DNA from: Prevotella sp.
GTDB lineage: Bacteria; Bacteroidota; Bacteroidia; Bacteroidales; Bacteroidaceae
Length of the DNA stretch: 34,617 nucleotides
Assembly: GCA_017483805.1 (NCBI GenBank)
Contig: JAFUUL010000124.1
Coordinates: 1-34,617 of the forward strand
Direction: 5' to 3'
In this document: one piece after another, positions 1,391 to 20,254 of the stretch
How positions within the stretch are numbered: the stretch's first letter is position 1
Layout of the letters: each line of letters begins with the position of its first letter
Made by a program: the position numbers and the translations under genes
The notes under the pieces: model-generated
What the model was told of the DNA's origin: nothing
What the model saw: only the letters and a program-made list of their open reading frames with translations
Database searches by the model: none

Positions 1391-2746
1391 ATGACATTAA
1401 CCGTATGGATTGTCGCAGTCTTTGTGCTTGGCTATTTCTTCATCGCCATCGAGAGTGTGACAAAAGTGAACAAGGCAGCCATTGCCTTGCTGATGTTCGT
1501 GGCCACATGGACGCTGTTCATGATTTCGCCCGAACTGTATCTGCCGGAGGCCATCGGCGACCTGAAGGCCTCGGTGGTGAGTACTGCCATTGAGCATCAT
1601 CTGGGCTCTACGGCCACCACGCTGTTCTTCCTGCTGGGCGCGATGACTATTGTGGAACTGGTGGACCAGAACGGCGGCTTCAACTTCGTGAGGGATGTGA
1701 TGCAGACCAAGTCGAAGCGGTCGCTGCTGTGGCGCATTGCCTTTATGACGTTCATCCTGAGTGCCATCCTGGACAACCTGACCACTTCGATTGTGATGAT
1801 CATGATTCTGCGCAAACTGGTGGCAGAGCGGAAAGACCGCATCATCTATGCCTCGCTGGTGATTATCGCGGCCAACAGCGGCGGTGCCTTTTCGCCTATC
1901 GGCGACGTGACCACCATCATGCTGTGGAACAAGGGCGTCATCACGGCTGCCGGCGTCATCATGGAGATTTTTATTCCTTCGCTGGTGTCGATGCTCATTC
2001 CTGCCTATATCCTGTCGCTTTCGCTGAAGGGCAACCTGGAGCCGGTGCAGGACTCGAACGTGCTGGAAGAGGCTGACGGCCTGTCGGCCCTGCAGCGCAA
2101 GGCCATTTTCTTCCTGGGCGTGGGCGGCCTGATCTTCGTGCCCATCTTCAAGACCATCACCCATCTGCCGCCGTTTGTGGGCATCCTGCTGGTGCTGGGC
2201 GTGCTGTGGACGGTGACGGAGGTCTTTTACATCCGTATCCACCAGGAGAGCGAGGATACGGCCAACAACACCAACACGCAGAAGCGCGTGTCGAAGATGC
2301 TGTCGCGCATCGACATGGACACCATCCTCTTCTTCCTGGGCATCCTGATGGCCGTGGGCTGTCTGGAGACCATCGGCGTGCTGACGCAACTGGGTACCAG
2401 CCTGAACGAGACCTTCGACGGCAATTACTATCTCGTCACGGGCATCATCGGCGTGCTCTCGTCGATTGTTGACAACGTGCCTCTGGTGGCCGGCTGTATG
2501 GGTATGTATCCCGTGTCGACGATTGCAGGCGACGCGATGGCCGTGGATGGCATCTTCTGGCAACTGCTGGCCTACTGTGCTGGTGTGGGTGGCTCGATGC
2601 TGATCATCGGCTCGGCTGCCGGCGTGGTGGTGATGGGCTTGGAGAAGATTACTTTCGGCTGGTATTTGAAGAAGATTTCGTGGATTGCCTTCGTGGGCTA
2701 TGTGGCCGGCATCGGCTGCTACTACGTGGAGAAATTGTTCTTCTAA
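1391..2746 (+). CDS. nhaD: Na+/H+ antiporter, NhaD family
   Basis: A polytopic inner-membrane protein of 451 residues with roughly a dozen hydrophobic segments, matching the NhaD group of the ion-transporter superfamily, which exchanges external protons for cytosolic Na+ or Li+. Family-typical stretches include AILDNLTTSIVMIMILRKL in the first half and SSIVDNVPLVAGCMGMYP in the second; these two related DN(L/V)-containing repeats form the inverted-repeat transport core. A short polar loop around residue 290 (ESEDTANNTN) separates the halves. It has its own promoter and ends at a hairpin shared with the convergent araC gene. Ion specificity is inferred from the family only. Confidence 0.9.
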   Translation: MTLTVWIVAVFVLGYFFIAIESVTKVNKAAIALLMFVATWTLFMISPELYLPEAIGDLKASVVSTAIEHHLGSTATTLFFLLGAMTIVELVDQNGGFNFVRDVMQTKSKRSLLWRIAFMTFILSAILDNLTTSIVMIMILRKLVAERKDRIIYASLVIIAANSGGAFSPIGDVTTIMLWNKGVITAAGVIMEIFIPSLVSMLIPAYILSLSLKGNLEPVQDSNVLEEADGLSALQRKAIFFLGVGGLIFVPIFKTITHLPPFVGILLVLGVLWTVTEVFYIRIHQESEDTANNTNTQKRVSKMLSRIDMDTILFFLGILMAVGCLETIGVLTQLGTSLNETFDGNYYLVTGIIGVLSSIVDNVPLVAGCMGMYPVSTIAGDAMAVDGIFWQLLAYCAGVGGSMLIIGSAAGVVVMGLEKITFGWYLKKISWIAFVGYVAGIGCYYVEKLFF

Positions 2747-2807: not shown

Positions 2808-3680
2808 CTACTGGTTACGCAGGTCACTGGGCTTGCGGCCTGTCTTCGACTTGAACTTGGCCGAAAAGTAGTCGGGGGAGTCGAAGTTGAGGCGGTAGGC
2901 TATCTCCTTGATGCTCATATCGGTGGTGGTGAGCATCTCCTTGGCTCGCTGTAGTTTCAGGTCCTGCTGATAGATGGCGGGGGAGAGACCTGTGTGCTCC
3001 TTGAAGAGTTTGCGGAAGTTGCTATAACTGACACCCAGTTCTTCGGCCACCTGTTGGATGGTGAGGGCGCTCTCCAGCGATTCACGGATGCGTAGACGGG
3101 CCCGGTTGATCATGTCTACATGGGTCTGGTTGCGACTCTTCAGTTCGATGTTGCGCTCCAGCGAGTACATCATGCCGATGAGGTGGTTGACGATGCCTGC
3201 CATCATCTGCTGTGAGTAGGCTGCCTCTTCCTGTGCAGCGGTAAAGGCCTGCCGATAGAGACTGACGATGTCGGCCGAATAGCCCACGTGATAGATGGGC
3301 TTGGTTGGCGACAGGAAGTTGGCCCTCACGCGGTCGTCCATGTTCACGCCCTTGAAGCCTATCCAGTATTTCTTCCAGCCGCGCGGCCCGGTGGGGTGGT
3401 AACTATGCCATTCGCCGGGGAAGAGCAGGAAGAAGTCGCCTTCGCGCAGCGTGGCCTCTGGCACGGTGCGGCTGTGGAAGATGCCTTCGCCCTCAATGAT
3501 GTAGAGCAACTGGTATTCGGGCAACACGCGACCTTTCTCCAGGTCGAAGTAATAGCCGTCGGCATGCCCACGGGTGGGGTAGGGGTCGTTGGGACCAATC
3601 TCCTCGTAGCCGATGGTGGTCACGGTGAGTCCCCATAGCGCATCGCGCTCGCTGGCAAGCATATATTTACACGTCTGCAT
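2808..3680 (-). CDS. AraC-family transcriptional regulator
   Basis: A 290-residue regulator. Residues about 20-150 look like the cupin-type sensing domain of AraC proteins (LLYIIEGEGIFHS, then EGDFFLLFPGEWHSY). The last 100 residues hold two helix-turn-helix motifs: TIQQVAEELGVSYSNFRKLFK and MSIKEIAYRLNFDSPDYFSAKFK, followed by the usual KTGRKPSDLR ending. It has no receiver domain, so it is not a classical response regulator. It is the last gene of an operon with two sensor kinases, 17 nt behind kinase A. The ligand and targets cannot be read from the sequence; the cupin suggests a sugar or other small molecule. Confidence 0.88.
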   Translation of the reverse strand: MQTCKYMLASERDALWGLTVTTIGYEEIGPNDPYPTRGHADGYYFDLEKGRVLPEYQLLYIIEGEGIFHSRTVPEATLREGDFFLLFPGEWHSYHPTGPRGWKKYWIGFKGVNMDDRVRANFLSPTKPIYHVGYSADIVSLYRQAFTAAQEEAAYSQQMMAGIVNHLIGMMYSLERNIELKSRNQTHVDMINRARLRIRESLESALTIQQVAEELGVSYSNFRKLFKEHTGLSPAIYQQDLKLQRAKEMLTTTDMSIKEIAYRLNFDSPDYFSAKFKSKTGRKPSDLRNQ

Positions 3681-3682
3681 AG

Positions 3683-3710
3683 TTTAGGGTTTACTGTTTA
3701 GGGTTTTCGC
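3683..3710. repeat. Heptamer tandem repeat at the kinase/araC junction
   Basis: Four 7-nt units on the + strand, starting at 3683, 3690, 3697 and 3704: TTTAGGG, TTTACTG, TTTAGGG, TTTTCGC. The repeat fills the 17-nt gap between the genes and supplies the stop codon and last codons of kinase A. Confidence 0.8.
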
Positions 3711-5362
3711 TCGCAGGGCACCCATATCCAGAACGTAGAGCCGTGGCCGATGCCTTCGCTGATGACGCCTATCTGGCCGTCGCAGCGTTCGGCGATGCTC
3801 TGGCAGATGCTGAGGCCGAGGCCCGTGCCCTGCACGAAGTCGTTCAGTTTGACGAAGCGCTCGAAGACGCTCGCCTGCTTGTCTTTCGGGATGCCGGCTC
3901 CCGTGTCCTCGCAGTACATATAGATGCCGTTGCGCCGCTTTGTGTTGGGATCTTTCTGGTAGCGGTAGCCAATCTTGATGTGGCCTTTGCGGGTGTATTT
4001 GACGGCGTTGGTCACGAAGTTGGTGATGACCTGCTGCATGCGCCCCTTGTCGATGATGGTCCGGAACGTGTCGTAGGGATGTTCGGCTATGAACTCCACG
4101 TTGGGGTCTTCCACGCGCTGGGCCAGCGTCTCGCAGGTGTCTCGGAAAGCCTGTGCAAAGTCTACCTCCTCCGGCGAGATGCCCTGCGGCGATTGGTTGA
4201 TGTTCGACGCCTCCAGGATGTCGTTGATCAGTCGGAGCAGCATATCGCAGTTGTTGCGTATGATGCGGATGAACTCCTTGCGGTCTTCCGGGGCATCGAC
4301 GGTCTGTATCAGGTCGCTGAATCCCACGATGGCGTTCAGCGGCGTGCGTATCTCGTGGGTCATGTTGGCCAGGAAGGTGCTCTTCTTCTTGCCAGAGTCT
4401 TCGGCGGTCTGGGTCTCCTGCTTGAGCCGCTCCTGCACCTCCATCAGGTGGGTGATGTCGCGCAGCACGCCGAAGTGGCCGGTGAAGCGGCCCTGCTCGT
4501 CGTGTATGGGCATGCCGCTGATCATGTACCAGCCCGGCTGCTTGTTGATGGCTGTGTATCTGAAGCGGTGCACCATGTAGACGTTATGGTAGTGGTCCTC
4601 GTAGTGATCCATAAACTGGCGGGCGGCCTCCTGCTCGTCGTCCCAGAGGGTGTCGATGTAGGTGTCGAAGGAGATGGTGTGTTCGGTGTCGCTCAGTTTA
4701 GTGGAGAAACTGATGGTTCGGTTCTCCAGGTTGCTGGTCCACACGTACATCTTGCAGTTGGTGAGCAGGTAGTGCAGTTCCTCCTCGTATCGGTATATCT
4801 GCTTGTTGGTCTTGGCTATCTCCTTGTCGTGGCGCCGCTGGTGCAGATACATCTCGCGCTCCTGGGTGATGTCGCGGGCCGAGAAGGCATAGTAGGCCAG
4901 TTGGCCGTTCTCGTCCCTGATGCTCCTGATCTTGTATTCGATGTATTTGTCCAGTCCGGCCTCGGCATAGGCCATCTTCTGGCAGACGTAGAACACGTCG
5001 TTGTTCACGGGGTCGAAGTCGGTGTCGAAGCCCGGCAGGTGGAAGAAACAGGTGTTTCGGAAGAACTTCTCTCCCTGCTCGTCGAACCCGCACAGTTCGC
5101 GCATCTTCTGGTTCAGGTCTATCAGCATGCCGTTGGTGTCGTAGAACGACATGGCCACGAGCGACGTGTTGAATATCTGCTGGTAGCGCTGGCGGTTGTC
5201 CTCCAGTTCCTCCGTCTCCATGTCCAGGTTCGTCGGTCTCTCCTTGGCGTCGATGGCCTTCTGCTGCCGGCGGTTAAGCCACACCAGCGTGCCCGTCACG
5301 GCGAGCAGGACGAGCGTGACGATGATGGCGATGGTTGTTATGAGCGATATGGTGATTGTCAT
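3698..5362 (-). CDS. PAS sensor histidine kinase (kinase A)
   Basis: A 554-residue membrane-anchored kinase. One transmembrane helix lies at residues 5-29, then a short linker and a PAS domain (about 55-170; YQQIFNTSLVAMSFYDTNG), a second PAS-like region (about 200-310, ending GHFGVLRDIT), and the HisKA domain with NMTHEIRTPLNAIVGFSDL, where H336 is the phospho-acceptor. The ATP-binding domain has an N box (NFVTNAVKYT), G1 (CEDTGAGIP), F (FERFVKLNDF) and G2 (GTGLGLSIC). All catalytic boxes are intact. Its start overlaps the end of kinase B by 4 nt (ATGA), which implies translational coupling. No response regulator with a receiver domain is adjacent. The signal sensed is unknown. Confidence 0.92.
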   Translation of the reverse strand: MTITISLITTIAIIVTLVLLAVTGTLVWLNRRQQKAIDAKERPTNLDMETEELEDNRQRYQQIFNTSLVAMSFYDTNGMLIDLNQKMRELCGFDEQGEKFFRNTCFFHLPGFDTDFDPVNNDVFYVCQKMAYAEAGLDKYIEYKIRSIRDENGQLAYYAFSARDITQEREMYLHQRRHDKEIAKTNKQIYRYEEELHYLLTNCKMYVWTSNLENRTISFSTKLSDTEHTISFDTYIDTLWDDEQEAARQFMDHYEDHYHNVYMVHRFRYTAINKQPGWYMISGMPIHDEQGRFTGHFGVLRDITHLMEVQERLKQETQTAEDSGKKKSTFLANMTHEIRTPLNAIVGFSDLIQTVDAPEDRKEFIRIIRNNCDMLLRLINDILEASNINQSPQGISPEEVDFAQAFRDTCETLAQRVEDPNVEFIAEHPYDTFRTIIDKGRMQQVITNFVTNAVKYTRKGHIKIGYRYQKDPNTKRRNGIYMYCEDTGAGIPKDKQASVFERFVKLNDFVQGTGLGLSICQSIAERCDGQIGVISEGIGHGSTFWIWVPCERKP

Positions 5363-6975
5363 AGGGCCTTCTTTCTGTCTATTTCTATTGACTTACAGGG
5401 GATGGTGATCCAGACGGTGGTGCCGCGGCCGGGCTTCGAGTTGATCTTGATGGTGCCGCCCATCTTCTCCGTCAGCGACTTGCAGATGGGCAGTCCGAGA
5501 CCGGTGCCGCCCTCGCTGCCCGACGTGAACCGCTCGAACAGGTGTTTCTGGTCTTCTTCGCTGATGCCCGATCCCGTGTCTTCCACCGTCACCACCAGTT
5601 TGTCGTTCACGTAGTCATAGCGGGCCACCACGCTGCCTTCCTTTGTGTACTGGGCGGCGTTGGCCGTTATCTGGCCGACAATCTGGCCCAGGTGGGTCGA
5701 GTCGAGCACGACGACCATGTGGTGGTAGTTGTTCTCCACCGTATACTCCACGCCCTCTTTCTTGTGCTGCAGCCATCCGTTCTCGCAGAAACTGCCGAAG
5801 AGGCCGGCAATGTCGGCGGCCTGTGCCTTGAACTCAATCATGTCGGCATCGAGGCGCGACAGGAACAGGATGTCGTTGATCAGGTGGAGCAGGTGGGTGG
5901 AGTTCTGCTTGATCTGGTCGATAAACAGGTTGTCCTCCTCAGGATCCTCGCTGTGCTCCAGCAGTTCAGAGAAGCCCACCACGGAGGTGAGCGGGGTGCG
6001 GATCTCGTAACTCATGTTGCGCAGGAACACATTCTTCACGTGCTCCACTTCCTGCGCCTTCTTGCTCTCCTTGGCCAGTTGCTGCTCCTTCGACACGATC
6101 TCGCTCTCGTCGCGGCAGAGGCCGAAGTAACTCTCCACCTGTCCGTTCTCGTTGAACAGGGGGTGAAACTGCAGGTGGATATACAAGTCCAGTGCATCCT
6201 TCTGGCGCAGCAGGGTGCGCAGGTGTACGTCGATGGGTCTCTTCGACAGGTTGTCCATGTTGTTCAGGGCCCGCATGGCCTTGCGCTTCGAGGGATCGTC
6301 GATCAGGGTCATGCAGCGCGACTGGGTCAGCGTGAGCATCACGACGCCGCTCTCCTTGAAGATGGACAGGGTGTGACGCTGCGGCGAATAGTTGGCCAGC
6401 CTGACGCCGCCCACTTGCAGCACGTAGTTGATGTTGTTGATATAGGCGCGGATATTGTCGTTGGCCTTGCTCAGTTCGTCGCCGCTGGCGGTGAGTTGAT
6501 GGGCAAAGTGTACCTCTTCCGATATATCGCGGCCCGTGCGGAAGAAGCCGATCAACTGGTGCTCCTTGTTGCGGATGGGCACCACCTGCTGTTCGTAGTA
6601 TATGCCGTCGGGGGTATTGGGCAGGCGGGTGGAGTAGAGGTACTCGAAGTCGTCCCAGTTTTCGCCGCCCAGCACGTCGTTGATAGTGTAGTCGCCATTG
6701 GTCAACTCGTCCCTGGACTTCTGGAAGGTGTCGCACGCCTTCTGGTTCAGATTGGTCAGCACGCCTTCCGCATCGTAGTACATCATATCTGACAAGGCCG
6801 TATTGAAGATCGTCTTGTAGCGCAGCAGCATGTCTTTCTCCTGCTGCCGGAAGTCCTTGACGCGCTTCTCCTCCAGCATCTTGGCTATCCGTCTTCGTCT
6901 CAGATAACTCATGGCCAGATAGGTCGAGGTGGCTATCAATGCTATGTTGATAATGGCTAGTACTACTATAATCAT
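5359..6975 (-). CDS. PAS sensor kinase homologue with Tyr in place of the H-box His (kinase B)
   Basis: A paralogue of kinase A with the same layout: transmembrane helix (residues 2-22), PAS domain (YKTIFNTALSDMMYYDAEG), second PAS-like region, HisKA-like helix, and ATPase domain with G1 (VEDTGSGIS), F (FERFTSGS) and G2 (GTGLGLPIC). The H box reads NMSYEIRTPLTSVVGFSEL: the expected His is Tyr323, codon TAC at 6009-6007, a single transition away from CAC. The N-box region is QITANAAQYT. It may bind ATP but cannot autophosphorylate on the usual His. The reading frame extends upstream to 7053, but a promoter at 7011-6980 makes ATG 6975 the likely start. It is first in the operon with kinase A and araC. 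Confidence 0.9.
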   Translation of the reverse strand: MIIVVLAIINIALIATSTYLAMSYLRRRRIAKMLEEKRVKDFRQQEKDMLLRYKTIFNTALSDMMYYDAEGVLTNLNQKACDTFQKSRDELTNGDYTINDVLGGENWDDFEYLYSTRLPNTPDGIYYEQQVVPIRNKEHQLIGFFRTGRDISEEVHFAHQLTASGDELSKANDNIRAYINNINYVLQVGGVRLANYSPQRHTLSIFKESGVVMLTLTQSRCMTLIDDPSKRKAMRALNNMDNLSKRPIDVHLRTLLRQKDALDLYIHLQFHPLFNENGQVESYFGLCRDESEIVSKEQQLAKESKKAQEVEHVKNVFLRNMSYEIRTPLTSVVGFSELLEHSEDPEEDNLFIDQIKQNSTHLLHLINDILFLSRLDADMIEFKAQAADIAGLFGSFCENGWLQHKKEGVEYTVENNYHHMVVVLDSTHLGQIVGQITANAAQYTKEGSVVARYDYVNDKLVVTVEDTGSGISEEDQKHLFERFTSGSEGGTGLGLPICKSLTEKMGGTIKINSKPGRGTTVWITIPCKSIEIDRKKAL

Positions 6976-7163: not shown

Positions 7164-8111
7164 TTAGAGCGGATACTCCTCGAAGGCGTAGAGCACGGTG
7201 GAGAGATAGCGCTCGCCGGTATCGGGCAGCAGCACCACGATCTTCTTGCCCTTGTTCTCCGGACGCTTGGCCACCTCGGCGGCGGCAAATGCGGCTGCAC
7301 CGGCAGAGATGCCCACCAGCAGGCCTTCCTGCTGGGCCAGTTGGCGACCCGTGCGGATGGCGTCGTCGTTCTCCACGTCGAACACCTCGTCCACCAGCGT
7401 GCCGTTGTAGGTCTTGGGCACGAAGCCGGCACCGATGCCCTGAATCTTGTGGGGGCCGCTCTGGCCGCCGTTCAGCACGGGCGACGACAGAGGCTCTACG
7501 GCAATCACCTTCACGTTGGGATTCTTTTCCTTCAGACGCTTGCCCACGCCGGAGATGGTGCCGCCGGTGCCTACGCCGGCCACGAAGATGTCCACCTGTC
7601 CGTCGGTCTGCTCCCAGATCTCCTCACCTGTGGTCAGGTAGTGCTTCTCGGGGTTGGCGGCGTTCTCAAACTGCTGCAGGATGATGCTGCCGGGGATGGC
7701 GGCGCGCAGTTCCTCGGCTGCACGGATGGCTCCGGGCATACCGTCCTTGCCGCTGGTCAGGCGCACCTCGGCGCCATAGGCTTTCACCAGGTTGCGACGC
7801 TCCACGCTCATGGTCTCGGGCATGGTCAGGATGAGTTTGTAGCCCTTCACGGCCGACACCAGTGCCAGTCCTACGCCGGTATTGCCGCTGGTGGGCTCGA
7901 TGATGGTGGCGCCGGGCTTCAGCAGGCCCTTCTTCTCGGCGTCCTCGATCATCGCCAGAGCGATGCGGTCTTTCACGCTGCCGCCGGGGTTGAAGTATTC
8001 CACTTTGGCAATCACGGGAGTCTCCAGGCCCTTGGCCTTAGAGTATTTGCCCAGTTCCAGCAATGGAGTATTGCCAATCAGTTCAGTCAATTGTTTCGCG
8101 ATCTTAGCCAT
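7164..8111 (-). CDS. cysK: Cysteine synthase A (O-acetylserine sulfhydrylase)
   Basis: A PLP enzyme of 315 residues that makes cysteine from O-acetylserine and sulfide. K47 in NPGGSVKDR is the Schiff-base lysine, PTSGNTG (73-79) binds the substrate carboxylate, and [12 protein letters not shown] around residue 180 binds the PLP phosphate. Length and motif order are those of CysK rather than the longer cystathionine beta-synthases. The gene follows metY by 61 nt, a gap largely filled with octamer repeats, and is closed by a terminator in the 22-nt array. Together with MetY it forms a two-gene sulfide assimilation operon under the metY promoter. No serine acetyltransferase gene is nearby. Confidence 0.95.
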
Positions 8112-14703: not shown

Positions 14704-14787
14704 ACATAGCGTTTTCTTGTTGATCGCCTGCAAATCTTCAATGCCAACCGCATCCAGATTTGGTTTTATACGATTTCTATAATAGAA

Positions 14788-14819
14788 TTTGTATAATTGA
14801 GATATTTTACTTAACTTTG
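14788..14819 (+). promoter_or_regulatory. Promoter of the first AAA ATPase gene
   Basis: TTTG at 14788-14791, a 20-nt spacer, TAACTTTG at 14812-14819. A consensus match; the ATG is 27 nt downstream. Confidence 0.85.
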
Positions 14820-14846
14820 CAGCCGAAAATAAAACAAAGTAGTAAT

Positions 14847-15983
14847 ATGGAAAATCCGTTTTATATCACTGGTATCATTCCAGAGCCCTATTTCTGTGAT
14901 AGAGAGAAAGAAACTGCGTGGATGGTTCGTACCCTTGAAAACAAGGCGCATATTCTGTTGACTTCACCACGAAGGATGGGCAAGACTCAGTTGATACGTC
15001 ACGTCTTCGAACAACCGTCCATCAAAGACAACTGTTACACCTTCTATACCGATACATATCCTACCACCAGTCTCCATGAGTTGGTATTATTTCTCAGTAA
15101 GGAAATCTACTCTGTATTGGTGCCCAAAGGAAAGACCGTGCTAAATAAGTTTCTGGCATATCTTCACTCCTTGGCGGGAAGTTTCGGCTACGATCCAGTT
15201 TCCAATACGCCCACGTTCAATATCAAACTCGGCGACATCCGCTCCCCAGAGTTGACGCTGGAAGAGATTTTCCTTTATCTGGAACAGGCTGGCAAACCCT
15301 GTATTTTTGCCATCGACGAGTTTCAGCAGATAGCCTGCTATCCAGAGAAGAACGTCGAGGCCCTGCTTCGCTCGTATATCCAGAAAATGAACAACTGTCT
15401 GTTCATCTATGCCGGCAGCAACCGCCATATCCTGGAGAATATGTTCAACTCTGCAGCCAAGCCCTTCTACAACAGTGCGGAGCAAATCTATCTGGACTGT
15501 ATCTCGAAGGACGTTTATACAGCCTTTGCCGCAGAACAGTTCACCAAAGCCTCGCGCAACATTAGCCCCAAAGCAGCGTCCTTTGCCTACGACCTTTTCG
15601 AAGGACATACCTACTATGTACACAACTTGCTTCACAATGTTTTTGCATTTAGTGAAGCAGGTGAAACCATAGACGAAACAGATGTCAGCAAGACGCTCAA
15701 TGACATCCTGGAAGAGAAAGGCCGCACGTTTGCCTCGGTGATGAATCAACTTAACTACCAGCAGAAGGAGACGCTGATTGCCATTGCCAAGGAAGGAAAG
15801 GCCAGCGGTGTCACTTCGGCCGCTTTTGTCAAGAAGCATTCACTCAAATCGCCCAGTTCCGTCCAGTACGCCACCAGTGCCCTGTTGGACAAACAACTTC
15901 TGACCTACCAGAACGATGGACGCACAAAACTCTATAGCGTTTCCGACCGTTTCCTGGAAATGTGGATCTGCCGGTCATATTGA
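14847..15983 (+). CDS. AAA ATPase of the ATPase_2/archaeal-type family (copy 1)
   Basis: A 378-residue STAND-like ATPase with no signal peptide. Walker A is TSPRRMGKTQLI (about 39-50), Walker B is CIFAIDEFQQI (about 152-162), followed by a sensor-like IYAGSNRHIL segment, and the C-terminal 100 residues have a winged-helix look (SGVTSAAFVKKHSL, SSVQYATSALLDKQLL). Such proteins are frequent, often mobile, and of unknown function in Bacteroidetes; they can act as signalling or DNA-associated ATPases. The frame is open upstream to 14760, but the promoter at 14788-14819 makes ATG 14847 the start. A MITE-like element begins 28 nt after the stop. A related copy lies at 19130-20254. Confidence 0.85.
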   Translation: MENPFYITGIIPEPYFCDREKETAWMVRTLENKAHILLTSPRRMGKTQLIRHVFEQPSIKDNCYTFYTDTYPTTSLHELVLFLSKEIYSVLVPKGKTVLNKFLAYLHSLAGSFGYDPVSNTPTFNIKLGDIRSPELTLEEIFLYLEQAGKPCIFAIDEFQQIACYPEKNVEALLRSYIQKMNNCLFIYAGSNRHILENMFNSAAKPFYNSAEQIYLDCISKDVYTAFAAEQFTKASRNISPKAASFAYDLFEGHTYYVHNLLHNVFAFSEAGETIDETDVSKTLNDILEEKGRTFASVMNQLNYQQKETLIAIAKEGKASGVTSAAFVKKHSLKSPSSVQYATSALLDKQLLTYQNDGRTKLYSVSDRFLEMWICRSY

Positions 15984-19129: not shown

Positions 19130-20254
19130 CTACATAAACTCACGGTTGAACCACATCTCGAAGACGATATCAGACAGATAGATGCCATCCATGCGCTCTT
19201 CAATCAGTTCTTTCTCCGTCAAGGCACTCTTAATGCGGGCTATATTCGACTTTGTGCCTAAAGGAAATTGTGCATTGACCTCCTTAGTTCCAAAGTCTGT
19301 GTGGGTTCCAGAACATATAGCCCGGATAAAATTGAGTTGATAGGTGGTCAGGCCAAGTGTCTGTTGCACAAACAAGCCGGAACACTGGGCGATCAGCGCG
19401 TCAACCGCATTCTTGAAGTCTTCTTCTGTAGCGGTGCCATTTGTTTCTGCGAACAGATTCCACGATAACTGCTGGACATACGATGAATAATTGTCAACAG
19501 TCTTGCAGATTCTCTCAGCCATTTCTTCAGACAGATGCTTTCCGTTTTTCTCGAAGCGACTGATGATAAATGGAATCCAATCTGCTGTAGGGATGCAATC
19601 TAGATACATCATTTCCCCAAACTGGTAGAATGGCATACGCTTGTTCTGAAACAGATTAGTCATCAGATGCTTTTTACTGCCAAACAGACAATAGGAAACA
19701 TGTTCTTGATGTTGCCATACACCTCGCATCCGTTTCTGTACCGCCAGTGTATCTGGCAGTTCGCCTATTTGCTGAAACTCATCGATACAGACTACCAAGT
19801 GTATGCCTTTCTCCTTGGCTATGACTTCTGGAAGATTTAATATTTCCTCTGGCTGGTATTCTTTTGGGGTTATACCCAGCGACAATGACACTTCCGACAT
19901 GGGTTCTGGGCTAAATGATATTTTGGGAGAAACTCTGATCAGGAATCGCTTGATATTGTCGAGTATCTGATCCGTACGTGATGCTGTCTCTTTCAGCAGG
20001 ACTGAGGCGAAACGATTCAAGAAGTCGTATTCACTCCGACAGTCATAGATGTCCATGTAGACAGGTTTAACGGAAGGCGCATCTATCTCTGACATTACTT
20101 TTTTTACAAGAGAAGTCTTGCCCATTCGTCTGGGAGAGATCAGGATGGTATTCATACCATTCTCAAAGTTCAGTTTAAGGCGTTTCGTTTCTCTGATGCG
20201 GTCAGTGAAATTGTCACCTCCCACCGACATCCCATAGATAAATGCTTTCTCCAT
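19130..20254 (-). CDS. AAA ATPase of the ATPase_2/archaeal-type family (copy 2)
   Basis: A 374-residue relative of the ATPase at 14847-15983. Walker A is SPRRMGKTSLV (about 40-50), Walker B is LVVCIDEFQQI (about 153-163), then a YCLFGSKKHLM segment equivalent to the sensor region of copy 1, and a C-terminal winged-helix-like part ending in a DIVFEMWFNREF motif that parallels DRFLEMWICR of copy 1. The two proteins are clearly homologous but diverged (for example the N-terminal 30 residues differ), so this is not a recent duplication. Function is unknown. It has its own promoter overlapping a 39-nt palindrome and its own terminator. Confidence 0.85.
   Translation of the reverse strand: MEKAFIYGMSVGGDNFTDRIRETKRLKLNFENGMNTILISPRRMGKTSLVKKVMSEIDAPSVKPVYMDIYDCRSEYDFLNRFASVLLKETASRTDQILDNIKRFLIRVSPKISFSPEPMSEVSLSLGITPKEYQPEEILNLPEVIAKEKGIHLVVCIDEFQQIGELPDTLAVQKRMRGVWQHQEHVSYCLFGSKKHLMTNLFQNKRMPFYQFGEMMYLDCIPTADWIPFIISRFEKNGKHLSEEMAERICKTVDNYSSYVQQLSWNLFAETNGTATEEDFKNAVDALIAQCSGLFVQQTLGLTTYQLNFIRAICSGTHTDFGTKEVNAQFPLGTKSNIARIKSALTEKELIEERMDGIYLSDIVFEMWFNREFM

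Follow-up and report, generated by a model that had tools for sequence, protein, structure and literature searches.

A conserved pair of sensor kinases in Prevotella in which one partner mostly carries tyrosine at the phospho-acceptor position

The stretch of DNA considered here, called the window below, comprises 34,617 nucleotides (nt) of contig JAFUUL010000124.1 from a Prevotella sp. genome and carries two adjacent sensor kinase genes, kinase B and kinase A, which are followed on the minus strand by a gene for an AraC-type regulator (order B, A, AraC; coordinates in Table 1). Kinase B has the fold of a histidine kinase, with Pfam matches to HisKA at 61.3 bits (cut-off 26.9) and to HATPase_c at 97.4 bits (cut-off 26.4) and with weak PAS matches; kinase A, which is about 30% identical to B, likewise exceeds the HisKA and HATPase_c cut-offs and has a weak PAS match. 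The two differ at the phospho-acceptor position: the H box of A reads NMTHEIRTPL and includes His336, whereas the corresponding stretch of B, LRNMSYEIRTPL, contains NMSYEIRTPL, so that Tyr323 stands where an active histidine kinase has its acceptor histidine. In its ATP-binding region, B has preserved D466, N439 (the second Asn of the N box), and the Gly residues that were scored, together with the DTGSGI and GTGLGL boxes; at the first Asn of the N box it has Gln instead (Q435). An earlier note on this DNA had claimed a tyrosine in place of the catalytic histidine of B and an intact A overlapping B by 4 nt, and both the TAC codon and the ATGA overlap are confirmed.

Among the 16 HisKA domains of the window's genome that exceed the Pfam cut-off (two further matches lie below it and are outside this count), 15 carry His and B is the sole exception, in an assembly that is 91.7% complete with 7.2% contamination. 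Of 247 Bacteroidota genomes, 2 contain the coding motif NMxYExRTP, the window's own being one of them, and its His form was found in 73 of 99 genomes; the own-genome count and the scarcity of the Tyr motif together indicate that the Tyr of B is more than a chance occurrence. Sequencing error as the source of Tyr323 is ruled out, as the near orthologues in two other assemblies (the loci and genomes of the sample are referred to by L and G numbers), G142 (94% identical to B) and G213 (75%), share both the Tyr and the B–A order. A lone sensor kinase of 498 amino acids (aa) with NMSYEIRTP occurs in another Bacteroidota family (L252:7004-8497, genome G692), and the 16 kb around it contain no second open reading frame (ORF) with the motif NM.[YH]E[IL]RTP.

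Homologues of B were collected by a genus-wide search, in which 101 of 249 genomes, that of the window among them, gave matches at E <= 1e-60, and by a family-wide search, which gave matches at 1e-50 in 15 of 349 genomes. Eighty regions were fetched from 75 of the 101 genomes; the family-wide search contributed a further 15, taken from its 14 other genomes, seven of which belong to a second genus. The window, these 95 regions, and eight control loci of the window's own genome yielded 295 kinase-like ORFs; eight were dropped, and the alignment comprised the 287 whose kinase core is nearly complete. Each ORF contributed a single row, such that the Tyr-type B parts of the fused A–B ORFs in L148, L168, and L174 are counted as A and lie outside the B total given below, and some rows are near-duplicates (e.g., L155 and L194, 97–99% identical). 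In the main tree, calculated by FastTree on the kinase core, 135 rows form an A clade, 137 form a B clade, and 15 are other kinases; the H-box column was excluded from this tree and from the second one described below.

His is present in all 135 A rows and absent from 119 of the 137 B rows, which carry Tyr (93), His (18), Gln (11), Phe (9), Ser (2), Glu (2), Gly (1), or Lys (1). Conservation of the Tyr across homologues, on which the earlier note had made its reading depend, therefore holds in part: Tyr predominates in the window's genus and in the second genus but is not invariant, and the homologues are far from uniformly His-bearing. B rows are present in 93 of the 96 loci (the window and the 95 regions); L240 and L241 have none, and L168 contains its B inside the fused ORF. 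The small clade to which the window's B belongs (4 rows) is entirely Tyr. A second tree (IQ-TREE in quick mode, 137 B and eight A proteins, PAS region to end) repeats the pattern for 136 B proteins. At the aligned column, the 15 other kinases have 14 His and one Arg, the latter in a kinase-like ORF outside the pairs (L185:12467-13393).

According to parsimony, His changed to Tyr once, at the base of a group of 136 B rows (support 99), Tyr changed back to His eight times within the clade, and the residue was replaced by Gln in one B subclade of 16. As the codons at this position in B are mainly TAC (58), TAT (35), CAC (10), and CAT (8), Tyr and His are one transition apart. On the same tree, irreversible loss of His would need 25 losses, and 10 changes suffice if reversals are allowed; a regain of His in some B proteins is preferred over irreversible loss, a preference that depends on parsimony. 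In comparison with G142 and G213, the ratio of non-synonymous to synonymous rates (dN/dS) is 0.152 and 0.148 for B and 0.154 and 0.147 for A (0.009 and 0.032 for the AraC gene). A value of about 0.15, equal to that of A, shows that B is not decaying; the earlier view that B is not in simple decay is thus borne out, and no raised non-synonymous rate was found in B. An account of B as a decaying duplicate or an assembly error could draw on the frameshifted copies in other loci, but has next to no probability in view of this dN/dS, the open frame in the window, and the homologues in the 101 genomes of the genus; it is already refuted by conservation across species.

An A gene lies directly downstream of B in 127 of 137 cases according to an automatic rule. 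For the remaining ten, A was found by tblastn in nine (L121, L126, L127, L128, L134, L159, L170, L171, and L194), complete or truncated where the sequence ends, and the last, L238, has a shortened or damaged A and a frameshifted B. Viewed from A, the rule finds B directly upstream in 127 of 135 cases, the other eight being explained by fusion of ORFs, contig edges, frameshifts or splitting of genes, and misses of the rule. The paired arrangement is thus conserved in both the window's genus and the second genus. The 88 loci with complete pairs contain one pair (49 loci) or two (39), and L171 shows the start of a third; the ATGA overlap between the stop of B and the nearest in-frame ATG of A occurs in 18 of the 127 pairs.

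The B proteins form three subclades: B1 (41 proteins, mostly of about 700 aa and without a solute-binding domain), B2 (74, including the window's type and most proteins of about 930 aa), and B3 (22). The partners of B3 form one A clade of 21 that contains no partners of B1 or B2, and those of B2 and B3 form a joint A clade of 90 (support 98; five rows unpaired by the rule), with the A of G253 outside. Because the partners of B1 are scattered over branches below this joint clade, duplication of the pair as a unit is only partly supported. Within each subclade, the pairwise distances among B proteins correlate with those among A proteins (r 0.70–0.86), which co-inheritance alone would explain as well.

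The partners also match in their extracellular parts. The extracellular solute-binding domain SBP_bac_3 was found in six of the eight pair members scanned with Pfam and, according to a small profile, is present in both or absent from both partners in 125 of 127 pairs, the two exceptions being fused ORFs that join A1 to the next B; five B2 pairs have it in neither partner (those of the window, G142, G213, L143, and L180). In three species (G235, G090, and G031), A and the following B are encoded in one ORF without an intervening stop, the fusion in L168 containing only the C-terminal part of A, cut at the contig start. These matched ectodomains and A–B fusions suggest that both subunits sit together. 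The longer B and A members combine SBP_bac_3 with PAS and HisKA/HATPase domains, a layout shared with EvgS/BvgS-type kinases, which have SBP_bac_3 sensor domains; the pairs differ in that none of the eight pair members scanned with Pfam has a receiver or Hpt match, and the window's B and A have no solute-binding domain.

The catalytic residues of the two clades have been maintained very differently. Scored over six residues, the ATP site is complete in all 135 A proteins and in 54 of the 137 B proteins (0 of 41 in B1, 48 of 74 in B2, and 6 of 22 in B3). Within B3, the complete sites belong to the six members that have Tyr or His, and each of the 16 that have Gln, Glu, Ser, Gly, or Lys lacks at least one of the residues. 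The first N-box Asn has been retained by 135 of 135 A proteins and by 4 of 137 B proteins. Several residues are conserved in B and variable in A (E309, E311, R374, L375, A377, M379, Y455, and C527, among others), which fits a role of B's own. The Thr at position +4 of the H box, which serves phosphatase activity in ordinary HisKA kinases, is kept in 128 of 137 B proteins and is Ile in the 75% orthologue of G213.

The window's B and both its orthologues retain all six ATP-site residues, a state compatible with a division of labour like that of FasB–FasC, in which B, as a kinase without an acceptor, would use its ATP-bound catalytic domain to phosphorylate A in trans on the His; FasC can do without its kinase domain but not without H246, according to the excerpted text of PMC12675982. 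As A always has its own complete ATP site and that of B is incomplete in 83 of 137 proteins, including the whole of B1, catalysis by B is not generally needed, and this division of labour is unlikely. A further possibility, that Tyr323 is itself phosphorylated and that B is a tyrosine-type acceptor, might be suggested by the fact that Tyr is the commonest state and that Tyr, Phe, or His occupies the position in 114 of 115 B1 and B2 proteins. However, nine B proteins have Phe, which speaks against a general requirement for Tyr phosphorylation, 17 have Gln, Glu, Ser, Gly, or Lys, and Tyr persists in 35 of the 41 members of B1, none of which has a complete ATP site, making a tyrosine acceptor very improbable.

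The reading preferred here builds on what was observed: B and A are adjacent in a conserved order, B has mostly lost His and retained the sequence of the fold, both genes are under equal purifying selection, their extracellular domains match, and A–B fusions occur. According to this reading, to which a probability of roughly 60% is assigned, B and A would be two subunits of one sensor, with B as the non-phosphorylated pseudokinase subunit, most likely in a B–A heterodimer. The most economical interpretation of the sequences would be that B lost the acceptor, and in many lineages the ATP site too, and that its fold, its partner, and the matching ectodomain were maintained. B would sense through its N-terminal and PAS parts and would dimerise through its HisKA helices, unable to accept phosphate, and A would autophosphorylate on His336 and serve as phosphate donor for a response regulator whose gene lies off the window's contig. 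In the mixed dimer, B would probably set the kinase/phosphatase balance of A. The physical heterodimer, the direction of control, and the identity of the signal and of the response regulator are the parts of this scheme that we infer.

A related arrangement would dispense with mixed dimers: as in DivL, homodimers of B might bind or dephosphorylate the phosphorylated response regulator of A and thereby feed back on A. DivL is the second-best PDB sequence match of the kinase core of B; it, too, has Tyr at this position, is devoid of autokinase activity, and reads a phosphorylated regulator (PMC4211667, in excerpt), and the retention of Thr+4 in most B proteins would be in keeping with such a role. 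This Thr is Ile in the 75% orthologue, however, DivL itself is described in the same excerpt as being without phosphatase activity, and the co-location of B and A suggested by the matched ectodomains and fusions favours joint subunits, so that separate homodimers appear fairly unlikely.

Several observations weigh against a B–A heterodimeric sensor or fail to support it. Partner-specific co-evolution in HisKA helix 1, measured as mutual information near the diagonal when helix 1 of B is compared with that of A, was not found: the true 127 pairs gave 0.458, compared with 0.431 +/- 0.024 (maximum 0.499) in 200 within-subclade shuffles. The near-diagonal enrichment was dropped as a heterodimer signal, because shuffling partners within subclades gives nearly the same value; in the 28 loci with both a B1 and a B2 pair, mutual information was 0.33 for true and 0.26 for swapped partners, with very few effective sequences. 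The result counts neither for nor against a heterodimer. The fusions link the A of one pair with the B of the next and not B with its own A. Eight of the 18 His-bearing B proteins have all six ATP-site residues, so that some B proteins may be active kinases. The deepest B, that of G253 (Phe), is placed differently in the two trees; in the IQ-TREE tree it stands apart from the other B proteins and beside A proteins, whose rows are then no single clade, so that the deepest branch is unsure. Single B or A copies in L181, L144, L194, L238, and L174 are frameshifted or shortened, by decay or assembly errors. Lastly, no response-regulator domain is found on the window's contig, as the genome's Response_reg matches (19, with 17 domains over the cut-off) all lie on other contigs, and no response regulator is encoded with the pair in the window. 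Of the pseudokinase–kinase heterodimer proposed in the earlier note, the conserved and constrained pseudokinase-like partner of an intact kinase thus stands, and for the dimer itself the co-evolution test gave no partner-specific signal.

A wider and more tentative reading, less likely than not, is that of a lineage-specific class of hetero-sensors built from units of a dead and a live subunit with matched ectodomains. Tandem arrays of such units, with B from three subclades, and A1–B2 fusions might together form larger mixed receptors that combine signals, and the dead subunit might flip to His and back to Tyr, switching a second acceptor on and off.

The AraC-type gene begins 17 nt after A, and the earlier note had taken it for the output or target of the kinases within the same operon. 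A close homologue (E <= 1e-90) occurs in 58 of the 101 genomes with B and in 48 of the 148 without (Fisher p = 1.4e-4, uncorrected for kinship), and the order B–A–AraC is found also in the deep-branching L239; in G213, AraC follows A, and in G142 an extra pair lies between A and AraC. On the other side, the AraC-type protein has no Pfam match to a receiver domain, 43 of the 101 B genomes have no close AraC homologue, and in L239 the order continues with rhaB, rhaA, and rhaT (L239:2738-7580), which suggests that the AraC-type gene may be a rhamnose regulator. In L230 and L231, B–A–AraC is followed, at some distance, by ORFs whose starts resemble those of rhaB, rhaA, and rhaT. The AraC-type gene is therefore enriched with the kinases and not required; its proximity and enrichment stand, and a single operon-encoded pathway with AraC as functional partner of the kinases is rather doubtful.

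In many loci the pairs are flanked by frr/rsgA/cysK/metY-like genes on one side and by AraC and an NhaD antiporter on the other, and in other loci they have different neighbours; the former names are partly presumed, and the NhaD, rha, and Pho genes were named by NCBIfam. The neighbour clusters in the 80 regions include c0 (rsgA-like, 38 members) and c1 (AraC, 33 members). A PhoB/PhoR-like pair lies upstream of B–A in L198 (L198:12479-14601), and ORFs similar in position, length, and start lie directly or nearly upstream of B–A in L199 and L239 (L239:13667-15790); these PhoR/PhoB-like genes are a possible original response regulator system. In the window's genome, two short ORFs with a Response_reg match (G000:C46:30453-30779, 123 aa, and G000:C116:33849-34184, 126 aa) may be stand-alone receivers. 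Elsewhere in the window, two similar-looking ATPase ORFs at 14760-15983 (plus) and 19130-20254 (minus), a few kb apart, both contain a P-loop-like stretch SPRRMGKT.

Table 1. Features of the kinase locus in the window, followed by fused and damaged copies in other loci.
Feature	Position	Strand	Description
Kinase B	5359..6975	minus	538 aa; N-terminal hydrophobic segment (read by eye), PAS region, HisKA-type helices with Tyr323, HATPase_c
Codon TAC of Tyr323	6009-6007	minus	phospho-acceptor position of B; from the ORF reading
ATGA overlap	5359..5362	minus	stop codon of B and start codon of A
Kinase A	3698..5362	minus	554 aa; layout as in B, but with His336 and canonical ATP-site residues
Codon CAC of His336	4355..4357	minus	motif match 4341-4366
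AraC-type regulator	2808..3680	minus	AraC_binding and HTH_18; possible member of the unit
Upstream neighbour	7164..8111	minus	presumed cysteine synthase-like gene; cluster c9, helps to mark the syntenic site
Downstream neighbour	1391..2746	plus	NhaD-type antiporter (NCBIfam); cluster c2, helps to mark the syntenic site
Fused A–B ORFs	L148:6390-11186, L174:6442-11211, L168:2-4135		A-type kinase, then solute-binding domain and Tyr-type B kinase
Frameshifted or shortened copies	L181:13936-15972, L144:7388-10152, L194:6708-9447, L238:7353-11158, L174:3743-6438

Pseudo-histidine kinases and kinase heterodimers are already known, and to our knowledge the control of histidine kinases by pseudokinases has been described from single cases. 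RetS and GacS of Pseudomonas belong to a hybrid-kinase network and are not known as a family of adjacent paralogue pairs. In that system one histidine kinase controls another through a heterodimer (PMC12189002, in excerpt). In Caulobacter, the pseudo-histidine kinase DivL regulates the active kinase CckA (PMC4211667, PMC12189002), and changing its Tyr to His does not restore autonomous kinase activity (PMC4211667), as far as the excerpted texts go. B resembles DivL as described there in having PAS domains ahead of HisKA/HATPase, a Tyr where His is expected, and a retained fold, and differs in that its partner is an adjacent paralogue with a matching layout; the closest matches of B are kinases of its own genus, DivL being a distant PDB match, and B is not claimed to be a DivL. 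FasB and FasC of group A Streptococcus are two sensor-kinase-like proteins encoded in one locus, for which two-hybrid evidence points to a heterodimer, not a homodimer, with unequal roles (PMC12675982); B and A share with them the adjacent arrangement, here in conserved order. FasB–FasC differ in that the regulator FasA is encoded with them and each has six predicted transmembrane domains, and the excerpted text of PMC12675982 describes no H-box His-to-Tyr replacement. The ChrS pseudokinase of Corynebacterium, which is inactive, heterodimerises with its paralogue HrrS, and alters output, arose by frameshift in laboratory evolution and is not a conserved family (PMC9491836, in excerpt). By analogy, DivL shows that Tyr can accompany loss of kinase activity, and FasB–FasC shows that kinases of one locus can heterodimerise with unequal roles.

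An earlier description of a widespread family of dead–live kinase pairs in Prevotella was not found in searches of the open PubMed Central (PMC) literature. The pairs described here are mostly of this dead–live type and are kept in a family whose B homologues occur in 101 of 249 genomes of one genus, and their adjacency and paired evolution suggest that the inactive B is a built-in regulator of A. The family varies naturally in the residue at the acceptor position (Tyr, Phe, His, or Gln), in the loss or retention of the ATP site, in the joint absence of the ectodomain from both partners, and in gene fusions, and thus provides a natural series for testing the role of the non-phosphorylated subunit of a two-component sensor in rumen and gut bacteria.

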